Shown: piece by piece, positions 36,766 through 55,606 of the stretch
Position numbering within the stretch: position 1 is the first letter of the stretch
Layout: each line of letters begins with the position of its first letter
Assembly: GCA_903882645.1 (NCBI GenBank)
Contig: CAIRXZ010000361.1
Coordinates: forward strand, 1 to 64,000
DNA: 64,000 nt
Direction: 5' to 3'
DNA from: an uncultured Acidobacteriia bacterium
Lineage (GTDB): Bacteria > Acidobacteriota > Terriglobia > Bryobacterales > Bryobacteraceae
Notes under the pieces: generated by a model
Databases searched by the model: none
What the model saw: the letters and a program-made list of their open reading frames with translations, nothing else
What the model was told of the DNA's origin: nothing
Translations under genes and position numbers: made by a program

Positions 36766-38208
36766 TCAGGCTGGTTGACGGCCCGATTCCCGCATTCTAA
36801 CATCCGTCCCGCGATCCTCCCCACCGCCGGGGGAGGCCGCTCCGCGACTCGCGCGATGGCGCCGGGGCAGTTGCAGAGACGCGCCGGCCACCCCCGCTAT
36901 CCAGGCGAAAACCATGGCATTGGCGGGGACGTACATGTTGAAGTCGACGAAGCTGTGCAACAGCATGGCCGTCATGGCGGCCACACAGGCGATGGAGCGG
37001 CATCGCTCATCGACGGAATGCGCGTAAAGAACGTTCCGGCCCGCGCCCGCGAGAACGCGCAGCACAAACGCAAGGCCGGCGGCAAAGCCGATAATGCCCA
37101 GTTCCGCAAGAACCTGGAGATAGTCGTTGTGCGCGAAATCGGCGGTATTCATCGGCGCCACGGTCTTGTACTTGAGGAAGCAGGATTCGTAGGTTCCCAA
37201 GCCGCACCCGAACAAAGGGTAATCCTTGATTAGCGGGACCGTGTCGCGCCAAAGCTGCGCGCGGGTATCGGCCGTGATGTCCTGCGTGTGGGCAAGATCC
37301 GAGAATCGCGCGACGAGCGGGGCCGATGGCAGAAGAACGAAACCGGCCAAAACCACGGCCGCGATCGCAGCCGCGGGCAGCATGCGCCGCCATCGCGGCG
37401 CGGACGCCGCGTGCTCCTCCCGCCAGCCCCGCACCGAAAGGGTGAGGGCGGCCGCCACCAGCAGCGCCACCAGGGCGGAGAAGAACCCCGTGCGGGAAAG
37501 CGAAAACACGATGGCGATCAACAGGAACGCGGACGCGATCAGCATCCCGCTGGCCTGCAAGGCGGCCCTGGCCGGGATGCCCTGCGGACGGCGATTGCGC
37601 TGCAGGATGGCGACTGCGTACATCGCCGGGAACGGCAGCGCCATTTCCAGAAGGCCGGCGTAGTGGTCCCAACTGCTATAGGTTCCGGTCGCCTGCGCGG
37701 CGCCCGCAACGTATGCCTGCGAGAATCCCAGGATGCCTTCGAGAGTGGTGATGACGATCAGCGGCCAGACCGCGGCCCAGGGGAACCGGTTCAGACGAAT
37801 CGTCGCGTCGCGCACCAGCAGAAAGACAACGGCATACGCGGCCAGCGTGAGCGTCCAGCGCGCCGTGTCGTACGGAGCCACCGTCAGCGTGACGAAGCGG
37901 GGCATGCCGCCCAGCGCCGGCGCGGCGGCGCGAAGCAGCTCGACTCGCGCCGGCGAGAGGATGCGCACCAAGCCCACCGGGAGCGGGGCCAACTGCAAGG
38001 CCGCGACGCCAACCGCCGCAAAAGCGCAAACCAGCGCCACGCGGTTCATCCTGGGGACACGGCGGCGGCGGGGAATCAGGAAGTAAAGCGACGCGACGAT
38101 CCCCGTCGCCAAAACGCAGGGAAGCCACTCTTCCGGCGCTACGCCGGCCCGCTGAAAGCAGGCGTATGCCAGCGTAATGGCCAGCAGGATAATGGCGGCG
38201 ATGTTCAT
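36766..38208 (-). CDS. O-antigen ligase/polymerase-type membrane protein
   Basis: 480 residues with about twelve helices, starting MNIAAIILLAITLAYACF. The Wzy_C-type periplasmic loop is visible: TADTRAQLWRDTVPLIKDYPLFGCGLGTYESCF...FAHNDYLQVLAELGIIG. It would join or polymerise polysaccharide at the periplasmic face. A weak ribosome site leaves the start open to about 38376. It lies behind a strong terminator and upstream of gmd and fcl, whose sugar it may handle. Confidence 0.85.
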   Translation of the reverse strand: MNIAAIILLAITLAYACFQRAGVAPEEWLPCVLATGIVASLYFLIPRRRRVPRMNRVALVCAFAAVGVAALQLAPLPVGLVRILSPARVELLRAAAPALGGMPRFVTLTVAPYDTARWTLTLAAYAVVFLLVRDATIRLNRFPWAAVWPLIVITTLEGILGFSQAYVAGAAQATGTYSSWDHYAGLLEMALPFPAMYAVAILQRNRRPQGIPARAALQASGMLIASAFLLIAIVFSLSRTGFFSALVALLVAAALTLSVRGWREEHAASAPRWRRMLPAAAIAAVVLAGFVLLPSAPLVARFSDLAHTQDITADTRAQLWRDTVPLIKDYPLFGCGLGTYESCFLKYKTVAPMNTADFAHNDYLQVLAELGIIGFAAGLAFVLRVLAGAGRNVLYAHSVDERCRSIACVAAMTAMLLHSFVDFNMYVPANAMVFAWIAGVAGASLQLPRRHRASRGAASPGGGEDRGTDVRMRESGRQPA

Positions 38209-38221
38209 GTCCGCGAAAATG

Positions 38222-38253
38222 AAAAAGGCCTCTGGCGCGAGCCGGAGGCCTTT
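38222..38253 (-). terminator. Intrinsic terminator after the PEP-CTERM gene
   Basis: On the minus strand AAAGGCCTC-C-GGC-TCGC-GCC-A-GAGGCCTTT forms a nine-plus-three base-pair hairpin followed by further Ts. It lies 26 bases after the stop of the PEP-CTERM gene and 14 bases before the ligase start, so the ligase needs its own promoter or readthrough. Confidence 0.85.
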
Positions 38254-38278
38254 CTCAAGAACAGAGGCTTCGAGACTA

Positions 38279-39109
38279 TTATCCGCGGCGGCGGCGAGCC
38301 AGCCCCAGAATGCCGAGACCCGCTCCGAACAGCAACAAGGTCGTGGGTTCGGGCGCGTCCAGCTCGACGTCCACATCGCTGCTGATCAGGGCGTTCGGAG
38401 GTGTCTGGCCGGGACCGGTGGTCCACATATCGTAAGACCCCACAGGAGCGCCGCCGGGCGTAAACTCGTCGATCCCCATGCTCACGCACTGGTCGATGTG
38501 GCCGAGGGTGGGGTCGGTGCACTCCGTCGCGTTGAGTTGGAGATCGCTGGGCGTCCCGTCGGAAACGCCGAACCAGAAGTCCTCGCCCGGTGTGATCTGC
38601 AGGCCCGTGACGTTGAAGGTGAGCTTCCAGACTGCGGCGTATGCCGGCGTGGCGGGGTTGCCGTACGTGGCCGAGTAGTTCGTGCTGCCGTCGCCGGCGC
38701 CGACGTACGGCGCGTACACGCCCGTGGTCGTGGTCGCCAGCGCCGCGATGGTGCCGGCGCCATTGGCGTAGTCGCCGCCGTATAGCGTCAGCGTGGTCCA
38801 CGGAAATACGCTCGGCACGCCGTTAGGCCCAAGGGAGGGATCGACGGGTCCCACAGCCCACACGGTGAGCGTCATTGGCCACCAGTCATAGGCGTCGTTG
38901 TTCTGGACGTCGCCACCGAGCAGATCGCCGGCGGCGATGCCGTTTTGGGCTGTGTTGTAGGCGTTGTTCGATGGCGGATTGGCATTTACTTGCGTTCCGC
39001 TGGTCAGCGGCCGGGAGTAAATGATGTCGGACGCCTGAACCGAAGAGCAAAGTAGGAACGCCACCGCGGCGGCGATCAAGATCTTAGTGATTTTGGCATT
39101 TGTGTTCAT
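38279..39109 (-). CDS. PEP-CTERM sorting domain protein
   Basis: 276 residues: signal peptide (ITKILIAAAVAFLLCSSVQA), a Thr/Asn/Gly-rich beta-type body and the C-terminal PEP-CTERM tripartite signal APEPTTLLLFGAGLGILGLARRRRG. Such proteins are processed by an exosortase and placed on the surface or in exopolysaccharide. GGAGGAAA precedes the ATG. Follows a FecR-like gene by 24 bases. No exosortase gene is in this window. Confidence 0.93.
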   Translation of the reverse strand: MNTNAKITKILIAAAVAFLLCSSVQASDIIYSRPLTSGTQVNANPPSNNAYNTAQNGIAAGDLLGGDVQNNDAYDWWPMTLTVWAVGPVDPSLGPNGVPSVFPWTTLTLYGGDYANGAGTIAALATTTTGVYAPYVGAGDGSTNYSATYGNPATPAYAAVWKLTFNVTGLQITPGEDFWFGVSDGTPSDLQLNATECTDPTLGHIDQCVSMGIDEFTPGGAPVGSYDMWTTGPGQTPPNALISSDVDVELDAPEPTTLLLFGAGLGILGLARRRRG

Positions 39110-39133
39110 GGTTTTCCTCCACGACGCAGTATC

Positions 39134-39589
39134 CTAATACCGGCTCAGACTCGGCGGTGCGGGCGGCGCGTGCCCCACGGGCAGCGCGGCTTGCGCCGAT
39201 CCGCCAGCCGTCGCAGTCGTTGTCACTCCGGCCTGCGCCTGCACCAGCGTATCGCCGGAATACACTCGGAGCGCGGAAGACTGCGCCAGAACGAACGCCA
39301 TCGATCCGCTCAAAAGCTGGAGGGTGAGATCGTCTTTTTTCTCTTGGACCTTGACGCGCGAATTCGGCGCCAATGTCACCACCGTGCCGTCTATAAAACG
39401 CATTGTAGCGGCTGTGTTTCCGGCCGTCACCGTGTCGCCGGGCATGACCGGCCATGACGATACGCCGGCCGTGTTGACCGTTGCATCGCGCAGTTGGAAA
39501 TTCGACGGGCTCTGGACGGAAGCGACGGGCGCCGCCGCGAATGCAGACCCGGCAATCAGTAGAAGAACTAAGCGTCTCAAAACATGCAC
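39134..39589 (-). CDS. Secreted FecR-like domain protein
   Basis: 151 residues from a GTG with AGAGGA seven bases upstream. A signal peptide (LRRLVLLLIAGSAFAAA) precedes a FecR-like beta domain: GDTVTAGNTAATMRFIDGTVVTLAPNSRVKVQE...LLSGSMAFVL. No sigma-regulator helix is present, so it is a stand-alone exported FecR domain, a type often seen next to PEP-CTERM and exosortase genes. Probably the first gene of an operon with the PEP-CTERM gene. Confidence 0.85.
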   Translation of the reverse strand: MHVLRRLVLLLIAGSAFAAAPVASVQSPSNFQLRDATVNTAGVSSWPVMPGDTVTAGNTAATMRFIDGTVVTLAPNSRVKVQEKKDDLTLQLLSGSMAFVLAQSSALRVYSGDTLVQAQAGVTTTATAGGSAQAALPVGHAPPAPPSLSRY

Positions 39590-39662
39590 CTCCGATTCCT
39601 CTCCATTCTATGCAGAACGCCCGGGCAAGTCAATGGAATATTCGCCTTCTTTATGCGCCTAA

Positions 39663-39732
39663 AGTACTATCCAAATAACGCAGAAAACGGGACTTTGTAC
39701 TGGATGAGCCCTACTTTAGTACTAGACGTACT
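39663..39732. promoter_or_regulatory. GTACT-rich stretch upstream of the FecR gene
   Basis: Four GTACT-containing sites within 70 bases (AGTACT at 39663 and 39718, GTACT at 39697, CGTACT at 39727), in a locally AT-rich region. The last two lie in the end of the TPR gene, so part of the pattern may be set by coding. Similar AGTACT sites sit upstream of the other PEP-CTERM gene and of lasso genes A and B1. Confidence 0.3.
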
Positions 39733-40856
39733 GAGTCAACCCATAGAGTCCCTTGAATTCGGTTATCGAACTTCGCCGAGGGCATCCGGATCACTCGGAC
39801 CGCGATCAGGGAAGTCGCGGCCGGCGATCTAAACTCTTGACTTACAAGCGTCCAGTCGCGGGTCCCGCGGAACGGTTCGGTGCGAACGTCCAGCCGCGCC
39901 GGCGCTTCCTGGTCGAAAACCTCCAGCCGCGGGCCTTCGTCGGTGGTGATCCCGCTGGTGCGGACCCATGCGCTTAACTCATAAACCCCGGGCGGTACTA
40001 TGACGGATTCGAGGACATTGGCATAGTACACATTGCCCGTGGCGAGGAATTGGACGCGGAGCGAACGCTTGCCATTGTGCGAAATCGCCCCATCGATGGC
40101 CGTCTCGAACTGGTTCGAAGGCTCAATGCGCCAATCCAGCGCCGATCCGCTGGGGTCCCGCTCGAACCCGCCGTTGAACACCGCATTGGGCGGGTCCTCG
40201 GGCGCACCGGCGAATTCCGTCCAGTCCGCCTTCGCGGCCGCATAGCGGCGGGCGCGCAGCAAGGAATCGATGTACGATGCCGCCAGGCGTTTGTCGGCGA
40301 ATCCGCTCTTTAGGACGTGCCGCCAGGCGATTCGCGCATCGTCCACTTGCCCGGTGGCCGAAAGGTGGCTTGTGTAAGAGACGGCCGCGCGCCGGTCCTT
40401 GCCGATCGTGGCCATCACTTTCGAAGGGTCCGCGATCATCTGGTCGAAGTAGTTGAAAAGCACGGCGTCGTAGTCGGGCACGGTCAGCAGGACGTGCGCC
40501 GCGGAGGAGAGAGCCGCATCGATTTCGCCTGTTTCAAAACGGAAATTGGCGTCGCGCAGCCAGATTTGCGGAAGCCTGCGGTTCAGCGCCAGCGCCCGCT
40601 CGAAGCAGTACCGCGCCGCCGGCAGTTTGCGGTCTCGCGCGAGAGCTTCACCGAGGTCCGTCCACCGGTATGGGTTGGCGCTATCGCGGCGCAACGCTTC
40701 CGTGTACAGCGCCGCAATACGCGCCGGATCCGCGCCCGGCTGCAACGAAAGCTCCTGCGCGGCCAGATCGGGGCGCGCGGAGCCGCCGAGCGCGGTGATT
40801 GCCACGCCGGCTCCGGCGGCCAGCGCGACGGAAAGGATAGCGGCTGGAACATTCAT
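39711..40856 (-). CDS. TPR protein with C-terminal beta-sandwich domain
   Basis: 381 residues. An N-terminal helix (VPAAILSVALAAGAGVAITAL) anchors or exports it. TPR-like helices run from about 40 to 215 (ALYTEALRRDSANPYRWTDLGEALARD). From about 225, NGGFERDPSGSALDWRIEP...GKRSLRVQF is a carbohydrate-binding-type jelly roll (CBM4/9-like). Such proteins are common in acidobacterial exopolysaccharide loci. Likely a periplasmic scaffold that touches glycan. Confidence 0.82.
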   Translation of the reverse strand: MNVPAAILSVALAAGAGVAITALGGSARPDLAAQELSLQPGADPARIAALYTEALRRDSANPYRWTDLGEALARDRKLPAARYCFERALALNRRLPQIWLRDANFRFETGEIDAALSSAAHVLLTVPDYDAVLFNYFDQMIADPSKVMATIGKDRRAAVSYTSHLSATGQVDDARIAWRHVLKSGFADKRLAASYIDSLLRARRYAAAKADWTEFAGAPEDPPNAVFNGGFERDPSGSALDWRIEPSNQFETAIDGAISHNGKRSLRVQFLATGNVYYANVLESVIVPPGVYELSAWVRTSGITTDEGPRLEVFDQEAPARLDVRTEPFRGTRDWTLVSQEFRSPAATSLIAVRVIRMPSAKFDNRIQGTLWVDSVRLVLK

Positions 40857-40972: not shown

Positions 40973-42118
40973 TCAGCGGAACACGCGGCGCAACGCCGTA
41001 CACGCCAGGCGCACCGGCCTGACCGCATAATACGCCGCCGAAAGACCTCGCGGCAGCGGGATCCACTCGGCATCCAATTGATTGGGTTGCAAGGCGCGGC
41101 GCCAAATGTAGCGCGCCTTCATCCGCGCACTCTCCATGGCGCGAAGGTGGAACCGCGCGCCTCCCCGCTCTCCGGCCAAATGGGTTGCCGAGCCAATGCG
41201 CCGGCCCGCCTCGGCGGCAAGTTCCCGGACAGCGCGAACCCGGCGCGCCCGCTCCACGAAATCGCGCGGCGCGGGGGCCCCGCACAGGTCGTGCGCGAGG
41301 ATCACGGCCATGCCGAGCGCGCGCCGGCACCGCGTGCGCTCGGCCTGGCGCTCCACATCGTCCCAGTCGAGCGGACAACGCGCCACGAGAGCGGCAATGT
41401 CGCAAGCCAGCCGCACGCGCTCCCAGCCCTTGCGGGCGCCGTGGATCGAGAGATAAAGAAGGTGGTCCTCGGGGCAGAGCGTGCGAACCGCAAATCCGGC
41501 CGAGCCGGTGACGATGGAACGTTCCACGGCGCGGCCGGAATCGAAAGAGAGAAAATAGGGCGGCGTGAACCGCCAATGAAGATCCAGCGCCCAATCCAGG
41601 CCCGCGCGCTGCAGCGTGATCTCGCAGGCCCCGCTGAAACCCGTATCCCAAGCCTCGGACCTCTTGCGATGGCCATCCACCGCCAAAAGATCCAACGCTC
41701 TGCCCAATTGCTCGCGGGGAACGAACAGATCGATATCGGTGGAATCGCGCAGCGTCACGTTGCCGTACGCGAGGTGCGCCAGGGCCGGCCCTTTGAAAGC
41801 GACGGCCGTGATGCCGGCGGATTCGAGGTTCCGCCAGATACGCGTCAACTCTCCGGCCATCCAAAGGCTCCGGGCCGCCTTGGATGCCGTCACCGCCCGG
41901 ATCTTGGCCAGAACGCGCGCGCGCGCCGGATCGTCCGGCTGGTTTAAGCCTTCGCCGCCCAGCGCCCGCGAAAGCAGCGGCAGCAGCCCCTGCTGGTCGG
42001 CCAGCTCGAAAAGCAGGGGCCAATCCAGCGGGCCCGCGGACAACTCGGAAACCCGGCGGCGGGCGCTTTCCAGGGACGGAAACCCACAGGCGATCAGGAC
42101 GTCTGGTTCAGGAGCCAA
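40973..42118 (-). CDS. Nucleotidyltransferase-family protein (NTP_transf_5-like)
   Basis: 381 residues from a TTG at 42118; a GTG at 42253 would give 426 but its first residues would be coded by a hairpin. The conserved parts are AVAFKGPALAHLAYGNVTLRDSTDIDLFVP (the GxALAxxxY plus DxD motif of the nucleotidyltransferase fold), DLHWRF and CPEDHLLYLSIHGARKGWERVRLACDIAAL. This family accompanies several RiPP clusters, including some lasso peptide clusters with HPr-kinase-like genes. Here it is 7.8 kb downstream of the lasso kinase, so the link is open. Confidence 0.75.
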   Translation of the reverse strand: MAPEPDVLIACGFPSLESARRRVSELSAGPLDWPLLFELADQQGLLPLLSRALGGEGLNQPDDPARARVLAKIRAVTASKAARSLWMAGELTRIWRNLESAGITAVAFKGPALAHLAYGNVTLRDSTDIDLFVPREQLGRALDLLAVDGHRKRSEAWDTGFSGACEITLQRAGLDWALDLHWRFTPPYFLSFDSGRAVERSIVTGSAGFAVRTLCPEDHLLYLSIHGARKGWERVRLACDIAALVARCPLDWDDVERQAERTRCRRALGMAVILAHDLCGAPAPRDFVERARRVRAVRELAAEAGRRIGSATHLAGERGGARFHLRAMESARMKARYIWRRALQPNQLDAEWIPLPRGLSAAYYAVRPVRLACTALRRVFR

Positions 42119-42224
42119 ATCGGTAACCGGGAGGATTCGCCGCCACGCGGCAACGCGAGTGGAACGGCGCGGGATAACAAGGACGGAGCTTAAGCGGAAG
42201 GAAAGAGAGACCCGAGAAACGCAT

Positions 42225-42251
42225 GCGGGAGCCCACCCTGTGGGCTCCCGC
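42225..42251. terminator. Strong hairpin between PEP-CTERM and nucleotidyltransferase genes
   Basis: GCGGGAGCCCA-CCCTG-TGGGCTCCCGC, eleven-base perfect stem with a five-base loop, 95 bases after the PEP-CTERM stop. No clear T-run. It overlaps the first codons of the longest possible nucleotidyltransferase frame and argues for the shorter start. Confidence 0.6.
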
Positions 42252-42345
42252 ACAAAGTCCTATCGACAACACGCGACGAGGCGCGCGAGGTGCGCCTTGA
42301 GATCACGCCATCACGCCAGTGGGGACGGGACTCGGCCCCAAACTA

Positions 42346-43038
42346 CTATTTCGCGGTCTTCCTTCGGCGGCCAAGGCCGAGCGCCAGCAGCGCTCCGCCA
42401 ACCAGAAGGCCCGCCGCCGGCTCCGGGACTCCGGGCGGGGGAGGAGGAGTGTAGTCGTCCGACAACTTCATGATGTATGGCCCAGCGGAAGACGGGAATG
42501 TCCCGGTCCCATTGGAGAAATACTCATTCTGGGTGCCAATGCCGTTGTCGTTATTCGCCCACTCCCAGATCGCATCGGTCTCGCTTGTGCCAACCTGGGT
42601 GAGGCCAATCCAATACTGGGTGCTCGCTCCCAAGGCGAGGCTGAGTCCGGAGAGATCTATCTGGGCGGGAATGCCGGGATAAAGGGCCTGGAGCTGGGCG
42701 TCGGTCACCGTCCCAATGTTCTGGATGAACGCGCCGGGCGTATTGCTCCCCGAATCCGCAAACAGGTCGACCGTTGCGGAACCAGTCGTAGTAGTGTCGG
42801 TGTTAGGATTAAGAGATAGCGTCAGCACCAAGTCGCTGACCGTGGACGCGGCTGGGGAACTGGTAAACGAATTGTAAAGCGGTCCCCATGTACCCGTAAC
42901 GCACGTAGTCCCAGTTACAACGCAGTTCTGGACCCAATCGCCCGTACCCGAGTCGTAAGCAAGGTTGTCGTACACCGTGCCCGCGGAGCACAGAGCCAGG
43001 CAACCGGAAATCAATAAGGCAAATAGTAGTTTTTTCAC
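42346..43038 (-). CDS. PEP-CTERM sorting domain protein
   Basis: 230 residues from a GTG with GGAGGAAC upstream. Signal peptide KKLLFALLISGCLALCSAG, a Thr/Ser-rich beta body with choice-of-anchor features (YDNLAYDSGTGDWVQNC, TQYWIGLTQVG), a PPPPP spacer and the sorting signal VPEPAAGLLVGGALLALGLGRRRK. Second PEP-CTERM protein of the region, similar in plan but not in sequence to the one at 38279. Confidence 0.92.
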   Translation of the reverse strand: MKKLLFALLISGCLALCSAGTVYDNLAYDSGTGDWVQNCVVTGTTCVTGTWGPLYNSFTSSPAASTVSDLVLTLSLNPNTDTTTTGSATVDLFADSGSNTPGAFIQNIGTVTDAQLQALYPGIPAQIDLSGLSLALGASTQYWIGLTQVGTSETDAIWEWANNDNGIGTQNEYFSNGTGTFPSSAGPYIMKLSDDYTPPPPPGVPEPAAGLLVGGALLALGLGRRRKTAK

Positions 43039-43594
43039 GTTCCTCCTTCGCACCTCACCGAGTATTGTACTGAGTTCCATGCGTAAAGGGAAGTCCCAAG
43101 TGGCTAAAGCAAAAAAAAATGTACTAGTACCGCATGTACCCGTACGGCCCATCGGATGGTCCCCGACGCCGGTTTCGCGCCGGCCGGTGCCTCCCGCACC
43201 CCTCCCGGGACAGCTCGGTCCAGGAAAACAAAGCTTTTAGAATCTGATATTTGCTGTGGTTCTTGCCAGTCCGCGGGCCTCTCCCGCGCAGGATCGAGTC
43301 CGCAATAAACCCACATTCGGTACGAATCCTCACGGAACTGATAATGCCCATTGGCGCCCATCGTGGGGCAGCAAGGCGGCAACCAAAAACCCCGTGGAGC
43401 GAGCCTCCGGCTTGCCATGCCGGCGTCCGTGCCGGCATTTGTTCGGAACGACGCCGGAACGGACGCCGGCGTGGGAGGCCAAGAGGCCCATTCCACAAAT
43501 CGGCGCGGCGCGCGACGAAACGGATCGGTGGGAATACATATGTCGCCTCGACGAGCGAGAAATCGCGGAAAAACGGAGGAACTCCCTGCGCCCG
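43039..43594. other. Intergenic region with palindromes and a repeat copy
   Basis: No gene with a credible start. The first part holds the upstream region of the PEP-CTERM gene with a GTACTAGTAC palindrome at 43121-43130, a run of nine A at 43111-43119 and GTACT at 43068. The second part carries the GTGGAGCGAGCCTCC repeat (43393-43535). Confidence 0.5.
43393..43535. repeat. GTGGAGCGAGCCTCC element, copy A
   Basis: Begins GTGGAGCGAGCCTCCGGCTT, contains a GCCGGC...GCCGGC stem and ends CGGCGCGCGACGAAACGGA. Copy B at 49003-49095 shares both ends almost exactly; copy A has about 50 extra bases in the middle, including another inverted pair (ACGCCGG...CCGGCGT). Confidence 0.75.
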
Positions 43595-45358
43595 TTACTC
43601 CGGGCGGGCGCTGGCGGCCGTGCACGCGGACCGGAAGAAATCCTCGAGCGCCGTCACGGGACGCCTGTCATTGTAGAGTAGCGCGTTGTCGCGTGTCATC
43701 CTCTCGACGATCCCCGCCCGGAACCCGCGGTCCACCGCCAGCCGGACCGCAATCTCGACGTACCCGGCGCGGTCGCGGGCGATCGTATCGGGAACTTCAA
43801 GCTGGCTGAGAATCGCGCCTGCCTGGCGGCTCCGCATCAGATCTCCGGGCAGCGTGACGACGGGAACCCGGCAGGCCACGGCTTCGAAGGTCGAAACGGC
43901 GCTGGACCACCCGATCGTGTCCAAAAAGACGTCCGCGACGCGGTGCAGATTCCAGTAGCGGCGCCGGACAAGCTGCGGCAAGAGAACGCAGTGGTCCGCC
44001 GCGCGAAGACCGGCGTCGGCGAATGCGCGGGCGAGCCGCCTTTCCAGGTCCGCCCCCACCATCGGGTTCGTCACGGTGAAGACGAACTGGGCGCGCGGCA
44101 CGCGCCGGGCGATCTCCGTCAGAACGCAATCGTTCTGCGGGAGGAACTTATAGACCCCCTGGCAGCACAGGAAAACGGCGGCGTCCTCGCGGAGGCGGAA
44201 GTCCCGCCGCGTCATCGTGAGGAGGGGGATCGGAATCGGCGGCCTCCGGTAGCAGACTCCCACGCCGGGAAGCCGGACCAGCCGCTCGCTGTAGTGCTCC
44301 GCGGCCGCCTCGGGTTCGGCGAGAGATCCCGAAAGGAAGTAGTCCACCGTGGGAAGACCCGACGTAATGGGCTGGTCCCAGGCCATGCACTGTACCGGCG
44401 CCAGCCGCAGCGCGGCAAGCTGGGTCATGATGGGGTCCAGGCCGATATCCGGAAACACCAGAATGTGGAGGTCCCGCTCGCGGATGCCGCGGCACGCGTC
44501 CTCCAGCCGGCCGGGTACATGGTCGAATCGGAAACTGATCCGGCGCGCCTCCTCGGTCACGCTGTCCGTCTTGCGGCCGAGGTGCCAGACGTGAACGGCG
44601 AACCGCTCGCGGTCGTGTTCCCTCAGCCATCCCAGGAAATAGCGGGTGGCGGTCCGGTCGCAAAAGCGCCCCGAGACGTAGCCGACGCGCAGACGATCCT
44701 GCCGCGCCGCGGGAGGCATCCCTAGAGGCCGCGCCCACTCTGGATAGTTGGCGGCCATGATCCGGTGCGCCAGCTCTCCGTACTGGACCTGCAAATCTCT
44801 GTCGTTCCGGGCCTGATAACCAAGATGGAAATTCGTGTGTCCACCGATCCCCAGCAGCGCGTTTCGCCGCCGCTCGGGGGAATCGAGCCGGATTTCCCGG
44901 CGCAGCCTCGCCAGCCCCTCCGCGAACCTGCCGCGCCACCGGTCGATTTCCCCGGCCGAGTCGTAGAGCACGGGCAAAGCCAGGGCTTCCTTCAATTGCA
45001 GCGACACATCGCCGGGGAAAGCCCGCAATCCCGCCGCCGCGGCGGCGATGGCTTCTTCCGTGCGATTGCACTGCTCCAGGAGGCCGGCGTATTGGTGATG
45101 CGCCCGGACGGTGGCGGAGCGAAGCAGGCCCTCGCGAAGCAACTCGATGGCCTCCGCGTGGCGGTTCAGTTTCTTGAGGGCGTGCGCGGCTTGGAACCGC
45201 GCGTCCTCATCCAGCGGATTTCCCCGGAGCGCGGCGAGAGAGTCCGCGTGGCGGCGCTCCCACATTTCGTTGGCCTCGCGCTCCAGCCTCTCGGCGGATT
45301 CGTTGAAAACCGTCGCCAGCGGCCGGCCGTCTGTCTTCTCGCCCGAGCGGGTCGTCAT
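43595..45358 (-). CDS. SPINDLY/GT41-like glycosyltransferase with TPR region
   Basis: 587 residues. The TPR-like helical N-terminus (about 30-140) is followed by the O-GlcNAc-transferase-like catalytic region: RLRVGYVSGRFCDRTATRYFLGWLREHD, HILVFPDIGLDPIMTQLAALRLAPVQCMAWDQPITSGLPTVDYFLS, then PGVGVCYRRP and VFLDTIGWSSAVSTFEAVACRVPVVTLPGDLMRSR, which is the nucleotide-sugar site. It could glycosylate proteins or grow glycan. Closely related to the gene at 53707. TGA is nine bases upstream of the preceding GT39-like gene's end. Confidence 0.88.
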   Translation of the reverse strand: MTTRSGEKTDGRPLATVFNESAERLEREANEMWERRHADSLAALRGNPLDEDARFQAAHALKKLNRHAEAIELLREGLLRSATVRAHHQYAGLLEQCNRTEEAIAAAAAGLRAFPGDVSLQLKEALALPVLYDSAGEIDRWRGRFAEGLARLRREIRLDSPERRRNALLGIGGHTNFHLGYQARNDRDLQVQYGELAHRIMAANYPEWARPLGMPPAARQDRLRVGYVSGRFCDRTATRYFLGWLREHDRERFAVHVWHLGRKTDSVTEEARRISFRFDHVPGRLEDACRGIRERDLHILVFPDIGLDPIMTQLAALRLAPVQCMAWDQPITSGLPTVDYFLSGSLAEPEAAAEHYSERLVRLPGVGVCYRRPPIPIPLLTMTRRDFRLREDAAVFLCCQGVYKFLPQNDCVLTEIARRVPRAQFVFTVTNPMVGADLERRLARAFADAGLRAADHCVLLPQLVRRRYWNLHRVADVFLDTIGWSSAVSTFEAVACRVPVVTLPGDLMRSRQAGAILSQLEVPDTIARDRAGYVEIAVRLAVDRGFRAGIVERMTRDNALLYNDRRPVTALEDFFRSACTAASARPE

Positions 45359-49201: not shown

Positions 49202-49356
49202 CTGGAGTTTGTACATTCTCCCACCGTCCCTGGTTCGGCGAGCTGCTCGGCATGAGGCAAGACCGGTGTTAGCCCGAAGGGCGTGAGATAATAGCCCACG
49301 GCGCAAGCCGTCGGGAACGGAACCTGCGCTTGAGTAGCCCCGTTCAGGGGCGTAGG
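49202..49356. repeat. Left arm of long inverted repeat around transposase remnant
   Basis: Over at least 49271-49356 this is an imperfect complement of 49514-49600 (shared AGCCCACGGCGCAAGCCGTC and GCCCGAAGGGCGT blocks). The outer block GGAGTTTGTACATT at 49204 matches AATGTACAAACTCC at 49624, so the symmetry extends outward. Confidence 0.8.
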
Positions 49357-49359
49357 AAC

Positions 49360-49464
49360 ATGCCGCACACTTTCGCTTGTCTGTTCGTGCACGTCGTCTT
49401 CTCCACCAAGGACCGTGCGCGCGATCTATCGCCCGAACTGGCGAGCCGCCTTTTCCCTTGCTGA
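49360..49464 (+). pseudogene. IS200-like (REP-associated) transposase remnant
   Basis: ATG followed by 34 codons: MPHTFACLFVHVVFSTKDRA... and a TGA. FVHVVFSTKDR matches the N-terminal strand of Y1/IS200-like transposases; the HUH motif and catalytic Tyr that should follow are missing. It lies exactly between two long inverted arms, like a REP-associated transposase with its flanking repeats. Inactive remnant. Confidence 0.7.
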
Positions 49465-49499
49465 AGAAGCACGGACTGGAACACGACGCGGGGGACCTT

Positions 49500-49640
49500 T
49501 GGGGATGAGGCTCTTACGCCCCTGGAAGGGGCTACCCGAGACTGCGGGTCCGGTTCCCGACGGCTTGCGCCGTGGGCTATTATCTTACGCCCTTCGGGCT
49601 CCGCGTTCAGGGCGCCATGCCAGAAATGTACAAACTCCCG
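49500..49640. repeat. Right arm of long inverted repeat around transposase remnant
   Basis: Complement of the left arm: GACGGCTTGCGCCGTGGGCT, ACGCCCTTCGGGC and GTACAAACTCC. Its own extra palindromes (CCCGGGGCATGCCGGG near 49638-49652) resemble the GGGGCATGCCC cores elsewhere in the window. Confidence 0.8.
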
Positions 49641-49875: not shown

Positions 49876-50823
49876 TCAGTAAGCCCGGCCAACGGCGCCG
49901 GCATTCCCCAAATCCGCCAGTATTCCGTCGCAGAGGAGGCCGATTCCCGCGAAATCGTCCGGCGCGGAAACCGCTCGAACCGGAACCGCTCGAACCAGGC
50001 GGCGGAGAACGTCGAACTCACGGGCCCGCATGGCGGAATCCAGCAGGTACCAACTGTAGGTGTTCGCGGCCAGAGCGAGCAGAGCCTCCATGGGCTTTAG
50101 AGGGCGGAATGCCGCTTCGAGCGCCGTCCCCCGGCCTTCAAGAATGTAGATAGCCGTCAGCGGCGCCGGATCGCAGTGAAAGGACGGGACGTCGGCTCGC
50201 ACGCCGGAGGCCAGCGGGAGGTAGCGTTTTTCCCAGTTCGGAGTGATTGCGGGCAGCGCGTCGCCATCTCCGCCCAGGGCCGCCGCCGCGTCCGGCCATA
50301 GATTGACTCGCGGATACCCAGGTTGCACCAGGAACCCGTCGCCGTTTTCCTGGAGCGCCGCCATGTCTTCCGCGAGCACCGCGCAGCCCCTCTGGGCGAA
50401 TCCCGCCGCGGAACTGGATTTGCCAGCGCCCGGGGGGCCGCAGAGCGCCACGGCGCTCCCTCCGGCTACCACCACGCTGGCGTGCAAACACACTGCCCCC
50501 CGCAGGCGCAACGCAAAGCCCATCACTGGGCCGACCAGGTAAGTACAAGTATCTTCGAACGACGAGCCGGGGGACGTGGCGGCTATCACCCGGTCCCCCG
50601 AATCGGCGACCAAGAACTGCGCGTCTTCGTAGACAAAACGGTAGCCGCGCGGCGTCCGCGACACGCGAAGAGACGGACTCGCGTAAATGCCAGGCTCTTC
50701 ACTGGCGGGCGGTGGAAGGCGATCAAACTCTACATCCAGATCCACCGCGTCCGACGACGACGCAATTAACCCTGGAATGGGCCGGTTGGAACGAATCCGG
50801 CAGCCATAGAGCAGATATCGCAC
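49876..50823 (-). CDS. HPr-kinase-like protein of the lasso cluster
   Basis: 315 residues from the GTG at 50823 (MRYLLYGCRIRSNRPIPGL, the usual opening of this subfamily); the frame is open to 50877. LHAS at 113-116, Walker A GPPGAGKSS at 129-137, then AEDMAAL as the metal/Walker B-like site. In paeninodin-type lasso clusters, HPr-kinase homologues phosphorylate the C-terminal Ser of the precursor. The precursor gene ends 128 bases upstream here. Its last residues are TYRTY, so Tyr49 or Thr48 would be the acceptor. A true HPr kinase would be longer, with different N-terminal domain, and lie near ptsH. Confidence 0.85.
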   Translation of the reverse strand: MRYLLYGCRIRSNRPIPGLIASSSDAVDLDVEFDRLPPPASEEPGIYASPSLRVSRTPRGYRFVYEDAQFLVADSGDRVIAATSPGSSFEDTCTYLVGPVMGFALRLRGAVCLHASVVVAGGSAVALCGPPGAGKSSSAAGFAQRGCAVLAEDMAALQENGDGFLVQPGYPRVNLWPDAAAALGGDGDALPAITPNWEKRYLPLASGVRADVPSFHCDPAPLTAIYILEGRGTALEAAFRPLKPMEALLALAANTYSWYLLDSAMRAREFDVLRRLVRAVPVRAVSAPDDFAGIGLLCDGILADLGNAGAVGRAY

Positions 50824-50951
50824 ACCTGGGTCCCTTGCCGGGAAGCCTGCAGGTTGGCGGACACAGCCGAGACACACGCCAGCACTGCGGCGGCGCTAAG
50901 CTCCCCGCAAAACGTCTCGCGCCCAATGAGGCGGACCGACAGGCGCCACGG

Positions 50952-51101
50952 TCAGTACGTTCTATAGGTCGTGTGTCCTATCTCCTGGTGGGGGGATGCG
51001 GTCTTCCCTGTCGTCTTGGTGAGCGTGGTCACATCTCCATACACTCGGAGCTCGGGTGTGTTGTAAGCCGCGCGAACGGGCTTGCTGCTGTTCTCTTGCA
51101 T
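50952..51101 (-). CDS. Lasso peptide precursor
   Basis: 49 residues, ATG with AGGAGGAGA eight bases upstream. The leader contains YNTPELRVYGDVTTLT (13-28), the Y-x2-P-x-L-x2-YG-x-x-x-LT pattern recognised by B1 proteins. Thr30 is the conserved residue at -2. The core from Gly32 reads GKTASPHQEIGHTTYRTY: Gly1 and Glu9 fit a nine-member macrolactam, leaving a nine-residue tail. It lies in a cluster with B1, B2, cyclase and kinase. Its first 73 bases overlap the end of the cyclase gene in another frame. Bioactivity unknown. Confidence 0.9.
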   Translation of the reverse strand: MQENSSKPVRAAYNTPELRVYGDVTTLTKTTGKTASPHQEIGHTTYRTY

Positions 51102-52909
51102 CGGTAAGTCTCCTCCTGTGAAATAAGCCAAGCATTTAGTACTATGGGTCTGAAATCGGCGCGTTCCCACCACCCCGGACTGTCGGGCGCCGCCAAGTGC
51201 GCAGTCGCCGGGTCGACGAAATCGTGGATCCGCTCGTGGGTGCGGGCGGGCTGAGCGATGCGGCCGCCATGTTTCAGGATGCCCTCGTACAGCGGGTTCC
51301 CGCGCAACCCCGCCTTGGGCCGCCGGCGCACCGCCTCGGGCAACATGCCGCGAAGAGCCATCCGCAGCAGCCACTTATCCATGCAGTACGGCAACTCGGG
51401 TATCGCCATGAGCCAGCGGACCAGCCGCAGATCGAAGTACGGGTGGCGAAACTCGATGGCGGCCCCCAGCCACGCCGCATCGCACTGCGTTTCAAAAATG
51501 GACATCCAGCACCATTCGTCGCTCATCGCGGCGCGCGCCAGTGGCCGAAGTCCTTCCTGGACCCGGCTTCCGGACGCTTGAGCCGCGCGCTCCACCACCC
51601 CGCTACGCCGCGCAAAGTCCGCGTCGAGCCAGGCGGGGATCTGATGATTATACCGTGGCGAACGTCCCAGGAAATGCAGCAACGCCGATCGCAAGCGGAG
51701 CTTTGGCACGGCCCGCCGGTCGACCGCGTATCGAATCGCGTTGAGCGCGAACGCCCCCGGCGGAATGGCCCGGAGCGACGCCCAGCTCGTCGGCGGCGAG
51801 AGGTGAAACAGAGGGTCCGCTCCCTGGCCGGTCAGTACCACCGGGGTGTCGCACGATTGCCGGCGATAATAGTCCGCCAGGAACCAGCCGAGCGGGTCGC
51901 CGTTGGGCTCCGGCGTGTCGGCGAACCGCGGCGAGCCATACGGGGCCACGTCGTCCATCGGCACAAATTCGATTGGTATCCCGAGGGCATCCGCCGCCAG
52001 GCCGGCGAAATGGCGCTCGCCGCCGGGGACGAACGTGTCCATCAAAAAACAGTGCGCCCGCAGTTCCGTACCTGGAGCGGCCTTGCGGGCGAAAGCCGCC
52101 ACCGAGGGCGAGTCCAGGCCGCCGCTCATCGCAATGCCGGCCCGCCCAACCCGAAGCCGGTCCGCCACGGCCCCTTCCAGCAGAACGCGAAAGTGCTCGA
52201 CGTAATCGCGCGTGCGGCGGTAGCGGATGCGCTCTCCCGCCGGCAGCGACCAGTATCGCCGGACCGAAACGCCTTCCGCCGTCGCCGTGAGCGCATGCGC
52301 CGGCGCCAGGCGCCGGATGTCGCGGAAAATGGTCGTCGAGAGGTCCTGGCTCCCCCAGAACACCAGATAATCCGCGACGGCCTCCTCGTTCAATTCGTCC
52401 GTCACGGCGGGGTGAAGGCGCACGCAATCGAGCGTGTTGCTGAATATGAGCGTATCCCCCGAGCGCGCGTAAAAGAACGGCTTGACGCCGAAATGGTCCC
52501 GTGCGCAGAACAACTTACGGGCGCGCCCATCCCAGATCGCGAAAGCGAAATCGCCCAGCAGGTGATCTACCGAAGACTCGCCCCAGCGGGCGTAAGCATG
52601 AAGAATCAACTCGCAGTCGGGACGGGTCAAGGCCGATTGCGGCAGCCCCAGTTCGCGGACCAGATCCTCGCGGGCGTCAATCCGGGCGTCGGCGGCGATC
52701 CACACCTGGCCGTCCAGGGACGCCGGCTGGCGCTCGTCGTGCGCCTCATAGGTGGTCTTCAGCAGCGTATGGACAAGCGCCGCCGAATCCCCCAGCCAGA
52801 CTCCCCGGCGATCCGGGCCGCGGAATTCCAAAGCATCCGCCAGGCTCTCCGCGAGAGCGCGGTCCGGGGCCGCGAAATCGAAATGAACGATGCCCGCGAT
52901 GCCGCTCAT
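51029..52909 (-). CDS. Lasso cyclase (asparagine-synthetase-like, C protein)
   Basis: 626 residues. The N-terminal Ntn-type glutaminase domain (MSGIAGIVHF) has Ser instead of the catalytic Cys at position 2, so ammonia release is lost, as in lasso cyclases. The ATP-pyrophosphatase motif SGGLDS is at 262-267. It adenylates the Glu9 side chain and closes the ring with the Gly1 amino group. The ATG overlaps the B2 stop by four bases. The last 24 codons (…CKRTAASPFARLTTHPSSECMEM) run into the precursor gene in another frame and look non-conserved. Confidence 0.92.
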   Translation of the reverse strand: MSGIAGIVHFDFAAPDRALAESLADALEFRGPDRRGVWLGDSAALVHTLLKTTYEAHDERQPASLDGQVWIAADARIDAREDLVRELGLPQSALTRPDCELILHAYARWGESSVDHLLGDFAFAIWDGRARKLFCARDHFGVKPFFYARSGDTLIFSNTLDCVRLHPAVTDELNEEAVADYLVFWGSQDLSTTIFRDIRRLAPAHALTATAEGVSVRRYWSLPAGERIRYRRTRDYVEHFRVLLEGAVADRLRVGRAGIAMSGGLDSPSVAAFARKAAPGTELRAHCFLMDTFVPGGERHFAGLAADALGIPIEFVPMDDVAPYGSPRFADTPEPNGDPLGWFLADYYRRQSCDTPVVLTGQGADPLFHLSPPTSWASLRAIPPGAFALNAIRYAVDRRAVPKLRLRSALLHFLGRSPRYNHQIPAWLDADFARRSGVVERAAQASGSRVQEGLRPLARAAMSDEWCWMSIFETQCDAAWLGAAIEFRHPYFDLRLVRWLMAIPELPYCMDKWLLRMALRGMLPEAVRRRPKAGLRGNPLYEGILKHGGRIAQPARTHERIHDFVDPATAHLAAPDSPGWWERADFRPIVLNAWLISQEETYRCKRTAASPFARLTTHPSSECMEM

Positions 52910-53367
52910 TGCGCGCCGCTCCACTGGACCAGGGGGGTGTACCGCGTCTCGGAGACGCCCACCAGCACGGCGCCGCCGTATTCGACCCAGGCATGCGCAT
53001 CGAACTCGGACGCCCAGTCTTCCACGGGCCCGTTTCCGGCGCCCGGGGCGTTGCGCGGGGGCTTGGCGACCCCGATGTGAAGGCGGGAGTCGTAGCCGAG
53101 ACGGGCGAGCAACCGGTGGGCGGCGAGCGCCTGCACCAGACACGTGGCGCGGGGTACGAATCGGGCCGCGGTCCGTATCGCCCAGGCGGCGCTTCCGGCA
53201 TCCGCCCCCTGTGTTCGCGACACGCGCGGCTGCTTGCGCAGCAGCGCGAACGGCGCCACCGCAAGCTCCAGCCGGGCGCAGGCCAACGCCAGCCAGGCGC
53301 GCGCCAGCAACGCGCGTTTCCGCGGCGGCAGTGCGGCAAACCTACGCCACTGTGGTACGAACTTCAA
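52906..53367 (-). CDS. Lasso leader peptidase (transglutaminase-like, B2 protein)
   Basis: 153 residues from a TTG that overlaps the B1 end by 26 bases. The opening WRRFAALPPRKRALLARAWLAL is the basic-amphipathic start of B2 proteins. Catalytic Cys76 is in PRATCLVQALAAHRLLARLGY and His125 in DAHAWVE; the third residue, usually Asp, is not obvious at VGVSE. Removes the leader after Thr31 when guided by B1. Cytoplasmic. Confidence 0.92.
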   Translation of the reverse strand: MKFVPQWRRFAALPPRKRALLARAWLALACARLELAVAPFALLRKQPRVSRTQGADAGSAAWAIRTAARFVPRATCLVQALAAHRLLARLGYDSRLHIGVAKPPRNAPGAGNGPVEDWASEFDAHAWVEYGGAVLVGVSETRYTPLVQWSGAQ

Positions 53368-53641
53368 TCAGCCCTTCTCCTTCGAGCTTGCCCAACAACG
53401 TCAACAGATCCAGCTCACACCGCCCGGCGTCCACGTCATAGCTTTCCAGCATGGCGTCGCGCACCGACGCGACGGTCCGCGGTTGCTCGATGAGCTTCCA
53501 AACCATGGCGCCAACCGGGTCAAGTCCATAATACACGCCCGTTTTCAGGTTGAGGATCGCGGCCTCGCCTTCCAGGACACAAGAAACCTGATCCGGCGAC
53601 GCCTGGACCACCGTCTCCAGCGTCATTGTTCGTTCAATCAT
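53342..53641 (-). CDS. PqqD-like RiPP recognition protein (B1)
   Basis: 99 residues from ATG 53641 (or 94 from ATG 53626; neither has a strong ribosome site). The PqqD fold is clear: LEGEAAILNLKTGVYYGLDPVGAMVWKLIEQPRTVASVRDAMLESYDVD...LLTLLGKLEGEGLIE. It binds the leader motif Y-x2-P-x-L-x2-YG and presents it to B2. First gene of the lasso group. AGTACT lies 68 bases upstream, at the stop of the GT41-like gene. Confidence 0.9.
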   Translation of the reverse strand: MIERTMTLETVVQASPDQVSCVLEGEAAILNLKTGVYYGLDPVGAMVWKLIEQPRTVASVRDAMLESYDVDAGRCELDLLTLLGKLEGEGLIEVRTTVA

Positions 53642-53706: not shown

Positions 53707-55506
53707 CTAGTACTTTTTGCCCGTCCCTTCCCCCCGGGCCGCGGCGTGGCGATTTGCCTCCCCGCGTGGCGGCGTCCGCTCCACGACGTCCCGGTACCAC
53801 TGCTCCAGCGCGAACACCGGGCGACGGTCCGAGTAGAGAGCCGCGTCCCGGCTGGCCATCCGCTCCACAACGCCGGCTCGCCACGCGCTGTCCAGGCCCA
53901 GACGGACCGCGATCTCGACGTACCCGTCCACGTCCGGCGCAATCGTCTCGGTCACTCCGAGTTGGGTGAGGATCGCATAGGACTGCCGGCCCCGCATCAA
54001 TTCCCCCGGAGTGGTAACGACCGGCAGGCGGCAGGCGATTGCGTCCATCGTCGTAATACAGCCCGACCACCCCATCGTGTCCAGGAATACATCGCACACC
54101 CGGTGCAGGTTCCAGTAGCTGAGCCGGCTCTGTTCCGGCAGAAACACGCAGTAGTCCGCCGATCGCAAGCCTTCCGCGGCGAAAGCGCGCCCCAAACGGT
54201 TCCGGAAATCCGCGCCAACCGCCGGGACCGGCGTCACAAACACAAATTGCGCCGCCCTCACTCGCGCGGCGATGCGGGCCAGCACGGAATCGTAATCCGG
54301 AAGGTACTTGTGCATCTGCTGGCAGCACAAGTATGCGGCCGCGTCCTCCCGGATGCCGAAATCGGACCGTGTCTTCCACATCAGGGCTTCCGGAACGAGG
54401 GGCTTTTCGCAGCAGACGCCGATGCCCGGCAAACGCACGAGCCGTTCGGTGTAGTGCGATTGCCCATTCTCGGGCTCCATCAATTCGTTCGAGAGATAGT
54501 AGTCCACCGTCGGAAGGCCGGACGTCGCCGGCCCGCCCCAGGTGGCGGCCTGGACCGGGGCGAGGCGCAGAGCGGCCAACTGCATCGGGATGGGAGAGGT
54601 CCCAATATCCAGGTAGACTAGCACATGCGGCCGGTCCGCCAGAATCGCGCGGCGCGCCGCCTCCGGATCGCCCGGCGCATGGAAAAAACGCGCGCATTCG
54701 CGGCGGACTTCTTCCGTGACGGAATCGGCCTGGTCCCCGGCGTGGTAGCAGAACACTTCGAATTGGCCCCGATCATGGTAGCGGATCCATCCGGAGTGGC
54801 TGTTCATGACGCTGGTGCGCCAGAAATTCGACGAGACGTACCCGACGCGGATCTTCTCTCCCGCCGCGGGCTTGAGCATGGGCTGTGGCCGGGTCCATTT
54901 GGGGTAGCGCGCGGCCATCGCGGAATGGACCATCTGCCCGTATTTTCGTTGCAGCTCCACATCGTTGCGTCCCTGGAAGGCAAGATTGAAATTCGTGTGG
55001 TTTGAGAGCGCCTCCAGGGCGCTCGCCCGCGCCGCCGGCGCGTCCAGCGCCAGTCCGCCGATGAACCGGTCGAGACCCGCCGCGAAACGCTCTCTGTAAT
55101 ACTCGATCTCGGCGCGGCTCTCATAGAGAACCGGGAGCAGCAACGCCTCCGTCAGCCTTGCCGACTGGGAATCCGGGAACAGTAAGACCGCCTGTTGAGC
55201 GGCCGCAATCGCCTCCCGGGTCCGGTTGTTGCCCTGGAGCGCCCAAATGTACGCCAGGTGCAAATCCAGGGACGGCGAACACCGCTCGATGCCTTCCCGC
55301 AGGACGGCGATTCCCCGCTCGTGCTCCCCCGACTCGGCAAGGCGCCCGCCCAGCTTCCGATAGGCCCTTGGGTCGGAGCCGTCTCGCAGCAATCGCTCCC
55401 GGCATCGTTCGACCCCGGCCTGCCGGTCCTCGCGCTCCCGCCGCTCCGTGGCTTCCACCTGTTCCCGGAAGACCTGCCGGAAATGCAACAGTCTTGGATC
55501 GCTCAT
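53707..55506 (-). CDS. SPINDLY/GT41-like glycosyltransferase with TPR region
   Basis: 599 residues from MSDPRLLHFRQVFREQ. TPR-like helices to about 130, then EKIRVGYVSSNFWRTSVMNSHSGWIRYHDRG, HVLVYLDIGTSPIPMQLAALRLAPVQAATWGGPATSGLPTVDYYLS and VFLDTMGWSGCITTMDAIACRLPVVTTPGELMRGR, the UDP-sugar region. Paralogue of the gene at 43595: the two flank the lasso group. Only 65 bases separate it from B1, so they may be co-transcribed. An open frame reaches 55575 but adds no family-like residues. Confidence 0.88.
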   Translation of the reverse strand: MSDPRLLHFRQVFREQVEATERREREDRQAGVERCRERLLRDGSDPRAYRKLGGRLAESGEHERGIAVLREGIERCSPSLDLHLAYIWALQGNNRTREAIAAAQQAVLLFPDSQSARLTEALLLPVLYESRAEIEYYRERFAAGLDRFIGGLALDAPAARASALEALSNHTNFNLAFQGRNDVELQRKYGQMVHSAMAARYPKWTRPQPMLKPAAGEKIRVGYVSSNFWRTSVMNSHSGWIRYHDRGQFEVFCYHAGDQADSVTEEVRRECARFFHAPGDPEAARRAILADRPHVLVYLDIGTSPIPMQLAALRLAPVQAATWGGPATSGLPTVDYYLSNELMEPENGQSHYTERLVRLPGIGVCCEKPLVPEALMWKTRSDFGIREDAAAYLCCQQMHKYLPDYDSVLARIAARVRAAQFVFVTPVPAVGADFRNRLGRAFAAEGLRSADYCVFLPEQSRLSYWNLHRVCDVFLDTMGWSGCITTMDAIACRLPVVTTPGELMRGRQSYAILTQLGVTETIAPDVDGYVEIAVRLGLDSAWRAGVVERMASRDAALYSDRRPVFALEQWYRDVVERTPPRGEANRHAAARGEGTGKKY

Positions 55507-55606
55507 GCTTGCCGGTTGGCTCGCGAGTTTAGAACGCCGCACGCCTGGAAATGCCGGCCTTGATGCGCCGGGCAATGGACCTGCCCGATGCCGCTAAATC
55601 GTCATG

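Follow-up and report, generated by a model that had tools for sequence, protein, structure and literature searches.

Kinase genes are common in lasso peptide clusters, and the only types found in the literature consulted are those acting on a C-terminal Ser and on Ser3 of the ring. Kinases of the paeninodin/ThcoK/SyanK type, known from Firmicutes and Proteobacteria, modify the C-terminal Ser (PMC9266682, PMC8498205). In the bsf cluster of Bradymonas sediminis (BsfA/BsfK/BsfN), the kinase BsfK phosphorylates ring Ser3, accepts Thr in place of Ser and refuses Tyr (PMC10368454). Pseudomycoidin (PsmK/PsmN) receives a phosphate and then a hexose on a hydroxyl residue, which is again the C-terminal Ser. 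Two further comparisons are metanodin (PMC12670498), where the core start was set by Thr at position −2 and the acceptor distance in the absence of Gly, and the acidobacterial soil-metagenome clusters 40.1, 44.1 and 482.1, for which the available part of the source (PMC9064862) gives a B1-B2-C-A type gene order, lists no HPr-like K beside A and yielded no product characterisation.

The locus described here lies at 49876–53641 of the window, i.e. the whole 64-kb stretch of DNA that was analysed, which belongs to an acidobacterial genome assembly of 5.27 Mb in 366 contigs. Judged by reading frames and profile matches, it is an intact cluster for a lasso peptide that also encodes an HPr-kinase-like enzyme for tailoring: five adjoining intact genes in the order B1-B2-C-A-K, all on the (−) strand, are open and retain their active-site residues. 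The cluster belongs to a known kind, the kinase-tailored lasso clusters, within a clade set apart by the C-terminal motif of its precursors and perhaps also by the size of the ring. With the paeninodin/ThcoK/SyanK type it shares Thr at −2, an HPr kinase homologue that has the His/Lys/Asp active site and is encoded next to the lasso core genes and, as in paeninodin, split B1 and B2 proteins, whereas the core lacks the C-terminal Ser modified there and ends in Tyr, preceded by Arg-Thr. With bsf, the locus shares B1, B2, C, a predicted nucleotidyltransferase and an HPr-like kinase of low similarity to classical HPr kinases; bsf differs in its target Ser3, in Ile at −2 of the leader and in a Gly1–Asp8 core. 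Kinase and nucleotidyltransferase genes also occur in the pseudomycoidin cluster, but here the latter gene (N, encoding a PF14907 protein) is placed 7.6 kb from K. Metanodin differs in its gammaproteobacterial ABC-type cluster with Asn1 and no mention of a kinase.

B1 (53342..53641, (−) strand; alternative start ATG at 53626) was assigned as a PqqD-like leader-binding protein by Pfam PqqD (5.9e-17, 62.2 bits, cut-off 23.4), with 62.8 bits against the cut-off of 80 for the lasso PqqD model NF033536. B2 (52906..53367, (−) strand), a transglutaminase-like leader peptidase containing Cys76 and His125, matched Transglut_core3 (3.9e-18) and the lasso B2 model NF033537 (6.9e-20, 71.7 bits, over the cut-off of 33). 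For the asparagine-synthetase-like cyclase C (51029..52909, (−) strand), which starts with MSGIAG and contains the SGGLDS motif, the lasso cyclase model NF033535 was the best in NCBIfam (4.6e-97), yet its score stayed below the 525-bit cut-off; Asn_synthase and GATase_7 exceeded their Pfam cut-offs, identity to full-length relatives was 37–45%, and C was placed among lasso cyclases on the cyclase tree. The 3′ end of its gene overlaps the precursor gene A (50952..51101, (−) strand) by 73 bases. A encodes 49 amino acids and was called from its translation, the Shine–Dalgarno sequence AGGAGGAG eight bases upstream of the ATG, the leader pattern and family comparison. The leader contains Tyr13, Pro16, Leu18, Gly22 and Thr28; its pattern occurred once in the 64-kb window and once in 100 simulated windows, by which a chance origin was rejected. 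The leader scored 27.5 bits with NF033528 (lasso_cyano, cut-off 33) and 15.9 bits with NF033521 (cut-off 19). Points that weigh against the interpretation are the profile scores of C, B1, K and the leader that stay under curated cut-offs, the lack of an ABC exporter next to the cluster, and a ring acceptor that is Glu and stands at an unusual register. A lasso cluster of B1, B2, cyclase and precursor had been proposed in an earlier note on this DNA, and the parts that it named (the PqqD fold of B1, Cys76/His125 of B2, Ser2 and SGGLDS of the cyclase, and in the precursor the leader pattern and the residues that it numbered Thr −2, Gly1 and Glu9) were all recovered by profiles or in the translations; the fifth gene, K, lies inside the same span (50877–49876) and had gone unnamed.

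K (49876..50877, (−) strand; possible start GTG at 50823) was assigned to no Pfam family and was identified through NCBIfam, the PDB and fold comparison. In NCBIfam it matched TIGR04352 (HprK-related kinase A) at 9.3e-9, far under the cut-off, and a profile built from 41 relatives of K retrieved HPr kinase in the PDB at 1e-7. An AlphaFold model (pLDDT 89.8) matched PEP carboxykinases. HPr kinases and PEP carboxykinases have a P-loop fold in common, and K is predicted from the model to adopt a fold of this HPrK/PEPCK type. An alignment of 119 sequences including BsfK gave the residues H132, G147/150/152, K153, S154, E170 and D171, of which His132, Lys153, Ser154 and Asp171 were invariant among 41 aligned relatives. 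K thus has the His, the P-loop Lys/Ser and the Asp-Asp pair of an HPr kinase homologue with Glu170 as the first Asp; this position is Asp in 108 of the 119 sequences and Glu in K and 10 others.

The B1-B2-C-A-K order recurs in dozens of loci of Acidobacteriota, Cyanobacteriota, Gammaproteobacteria and Chloroflexota, with cyclase identities of about 37–45%. Among the roughly 120 genomes of the same family that were searched, cyclase matches better than 1e-100 were obtained in two besides the source, and in none of three genomes of the same genus, which marks the cluster as accessory. A second lasso cluster with B1, cyclase, precursor and a divergent K was observed on a different contig of the source genome (locus L002; genome G000, contig 44, 16142–17569 and flanks); its precursor is MLDKKTYLAPRLISYGSVAKLTKAKSGPQTDSSGGKCTNNTPPVRRF, with Asp8 as acceptor.

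Most precursors encoded beside close relatives of K (60 of 73) have Lys or Arg followed by Ser or Thr, [KR][ST], among their six C-terminal residues, in place of the C-terminal Ser of the paeninodin type; in the window precursor, this is Arg47-Thr48 (50958..50963, (−) strand). The motif was noticed in a first set of 43 precursors before it was tested there (37 of 43; shuffling the cores 2000 times gave 4.9 on average and 13 at most), and a second set of 30 was fetched afterwards, in which it was present in 23 (4.3 expected from shuffled cores), the second set being from the same phylum as the first and phylogenetically dependent on it. Where the neighbouring kinase is a divergent one, the motif was found in 2 of 21 precursors; where no kinase adjoins, it was found in 4 of 20, and for two of these four (L049, L010) the locus has a divergent kinase elsewhere. 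Five of the seven exceptions in the second set belong to one acidobacterial genus-level group (L118, L119, L121) with cores ending in Ser-Arg; the endings observed in place of [KR]T are NRLSR, NASR and NRVSR, and L118 and L119 have two precursors per locus. No mention of the motif was found in the literature on phosphorylated lasso peptides. On the cyclase tree, kinase and motif both belong to one well-supported clade, leaving three independent contrasts only and no power; given this confinement to a single cyclase clade, we infer the link between them, and the motif could instead be needed by the cyclase, for export or for binding to a target.

Within Arg47-Thr48, Thr48 is the likely phosphosite by sequence comparison. 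Tyr49 and Tyr46 were considered and are less likely, because BsfK refuses Tyr, which argues against Tyr49, and the clade retains Thr or Ser. A phosphate (+79.97) appeared in the earlier note as a possibility only; the present comparison suggests Thr48 (core Thr17) as its site. That K modifies another Ser or Thr, for instance in the ring, and that [KR][ST] is a motif for export, recognition or a target, would have a precedent in BsfK and its ring Ser3 (PMC10368454) and would suit a motif that is inseparable from the kinase on the tree. We consider this rather unlikely, as a ring Ser or Thr is conserved nowhere across the clade whereas the C-terminal one is, and several exceptions within the clade (L050, L053, L060) end in Ser like paeninodin. 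In the window, core residue 3 would be Thr34 (GKT) or Gly32, depending on whether the leader is cut after Thr31 or after Lys29; most clade members have Gly there.

This cut was examined by aligning the 73 kinase-clade precursors with Tyr of the leader set as −17, in agreement with published leaders, in which YxxPxL sits at −17 to −12 (PMC10368454). In this register, Tyr −17, Pro −14, Gly −8 and Thr −2 characterise the 73, all of which have Thr at −2, this being a selection rule of the precursor scan; without the rule, L076 alone deviates among the convincing precursors. The consensus covers positions −17/−14/−12/−9/−8/−3/−2/−1, usually with [LIMV] at −3 and [QRK] at −1 (Gln, Arg or Lys at −1 in 56 of 73). 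Cores of the clade mostly start with Ala, Thr, Ser or Asn, and Gly3 is the commonest core residue (25 of the 48 cores with acceptor 9). The acceptor falls at position 9 in 48 precursors, at 10 in 15, at 8 in seven, at 7 in one and at 11 in two; Glu is the acceptor in 2 of 73. With the conserved cut, the first suitable acceptor is at position 10 in L034, L036, L047, L054, L055, L058, L122 and L124, and further in L135, L137, L138, L139, L141, L143 and L144. These fifteen cores start with Thr, Asn, Ser or Ala, while a cut moved by one would make several start with Val, Ile, Leu, Gln or Lys and leave no Thr at −2. As the small residue 1 and Thr(−2) would be lost by moving the cut, the comparison favours a fixed cut and makes these precursors candidates for natural ten-residue lasso rings, of which no report was found in the literature.

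Applied to the window precursor, the register gives a core that begins TTGKTASPHQE, with Gly at 3. Glu40 is the sole acidic residue of the core region and the only possible ring acceptor, so that the register cut after Lys29 requires an 11-residue ring: the core would be TTGKTASPHQEIGHTTYRTY (50955..51014, (−) strand; 20 residues, 2230.077 Da) with a Thr1–Glu11 ring. The earlier note had placed the cut after Thr31, giving GKTASPHQEIGHTTYRTY (50955..51008, (−) strand; 18 residues) with a Gly1–Glu9 ring; its residues and its mass of about 2027.98 Da, recomputed as 2027.981 Da (2107.948 Da with one phosphate), are correct. No close homologue of the core was detected, and a literature search for it gave nothing relevant. 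The cut itself, which shifts the leader register by two, is possible rather than established. The two cuts were rated about even, and sequence alone cannot decide between them.

Cleavage after Thr31, to which we give nearly an even chance, would keep Thr at −2 and Gly at 1 and form a nine-residue ring, the size found most often in the clade (48 of 73). The two precursors of the clade with acceptor 11 (the window and L050) both carry Thr at register +1, which is −2 of the shifted cut, as does L105 outside the clade (TCNVKTFGLYD), although Thr at +1 is common regardless (22 of 73). Leader spacing is variable to the extent that Thr is one residue nearer to Tyr in two L076 precursors, but a Thr31 cut would move Tyr to −19, break the conserved spacing and replace the usual [LIMV] and [QRK] by Lys at −3 and Thr at −1. 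Gly32, moreover, lines up with Gly3 of relatives including the neighbour L007 (TSGKGSYD against TTGKTASP here), in which a Gly start would leave a six-residue ring, below any described. For cleavage after Lys29, every leader position agrees with the consensus of the 73 precursors, the close neighbour L007 on the cyclase tree starts with TSGK, and the 15 precursors with acceptor 10 and a small residue (Thr, Asn, Ser or Ala) at position 1 suggest a constant cut site and a variable ring size; a ten-residue ring has also been produced enzymatically as an analogue (PMC8498205). Natural rings described so far have 7–9 residues (PMC10368454), however, 11 exceeds the 7–10 inferred for the clade, and altering ring size by one usually lowers production strongly (PMC13352647). 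We give the Lys29 cut somewhat less than an even chance. A decayed core, in which the usual Asp9 has become His at register position 9 and no lasso is formed by still intact enzymes, would account for the rarity of Glu as acceptor and of an acceptor at 11 (2 of 73 each) and for the long branch of the window cyclase (1.02 changes per column); with five open genes that keep their active-site residues and an acceptor-to-motif distance of 8, inside the usual range (8–10 in 45 of 63), it appears improbable.

Downstream of K, N (40973..42253, (−) strand; Pfam 6.3e-50) encodes a PF14907 nucleotidyltransferase, one of three only in the genome. Among related loci, 33 have a homologue of N, as a rule on the downstream side of K and in many close to it, and in cyanobacterial loci an ABC exporter and a PF14907 gene often follow K. 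By analogy, N may be a partner that alters the phosphate; the distance of 7.6 kb from K and the glycan genes in between stand against such a role. In several acidobacterial loci, K is followed by genes for TPR and Wzy_C proteins; their counterparts here, the TPR/carbohydrate-binding protein P2 (39711..40856, (−) strand) and the O-antigen-ligase-like Wzy_C protein (36766..38376, (−) strand; Pfam 1.7e-23), each with homologues in 8 related loci, are weakly linked to the cluster. The Wzy_C gene was observed beside the TPR gene, downstream of K, in L039, L063, L064 and L081, as at 36766–40856 of the window. Genes of GT2, FkbM, PMT-like, GT41 and PEP-CTERM-like type lie between K and the PF14907/TPR/Wzy_C genes (42253–36766). 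Two TPR-containing GT41 genes (OGT/NGT-like; 43595–45358 and 53707–55575) with 52% identity to each other lie on either side of the lasso genes and share their orientation, both within the glycan island. The copy upstream of B1 (55575–53707) was considered as a lasso tailoring enzyme, for which no support was obtained, given the second copy at 45358–43595; GT41 was matched in none of 60 related genomes and, among related lasso loci, in L061 only. Between the GT41 and PF14907 genes, 42346–43152 encodes a probable PEP-CTERM surface protein (VPEPAAG...GRRRK end), scoring just over the 16-bit cut-off of TIGR02595. The region 49271–49600, between K and the GT2 gene, contains an imperfect 57-base inverted repeat whose arms are 93% complementary and separated by 216 bases, another pair of 29 bases nested within it, and a short ORF (MPHTFACLFVHVVFSTKDR...) resembling, by eye, a REP-associated transposase remnant without a Pfam match.

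An intact kinase-tailored B1-B2-C-A-K lasso cluster with the following pathway is the best explanation of the locus and, in our judgement, a fairly probable one; the genes, their motifs, the family membership and the conservation of the C-terminal motif are observed, while we infer expression, step order, phosphosite, cut site and any role of N. B1 would bind the YxxPxL leader and present the 49-residue precursor, and K would phosphorylate Thr48 of the C-terminal Arg-Thr motif while the precursor is linear. B2 would then release the core by cutting behind Lys29 or Thr31, in either case with a Thr at −2, and the cyclase would close the ring between Glu40 and the freed N-terminus with the tail threaded through it, after which the downstream PF14907 protein may alter the phosphate in the manner of PsmN from the pseudomycoidin cluster. 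Extended to the whole clade across Acidobacteriota, Cyanobacteriota, Gammaproteobacteria and Chloroflexota, the proposal would be that an internal Thr is phosphorylated in a C-terminal [KR]T motif, that the leader cut is fixed and that rings vary, naturally up to ten residues (15 of 73) and here to eleven; in this full form we regard it as doubtful. A rule of Gly1 and Glu/Asp9, as used in the earlier note and in common mining rules, may mis-assign cores in the kinase clade, and the acceptor distances pose the question of whether natural lasso rings of more than nine residues exist. For this large branch of lasso peptide clusters, which has received little study, the clade-wide [KR][ST] motif would provide a direct rule for the kinase substrate.
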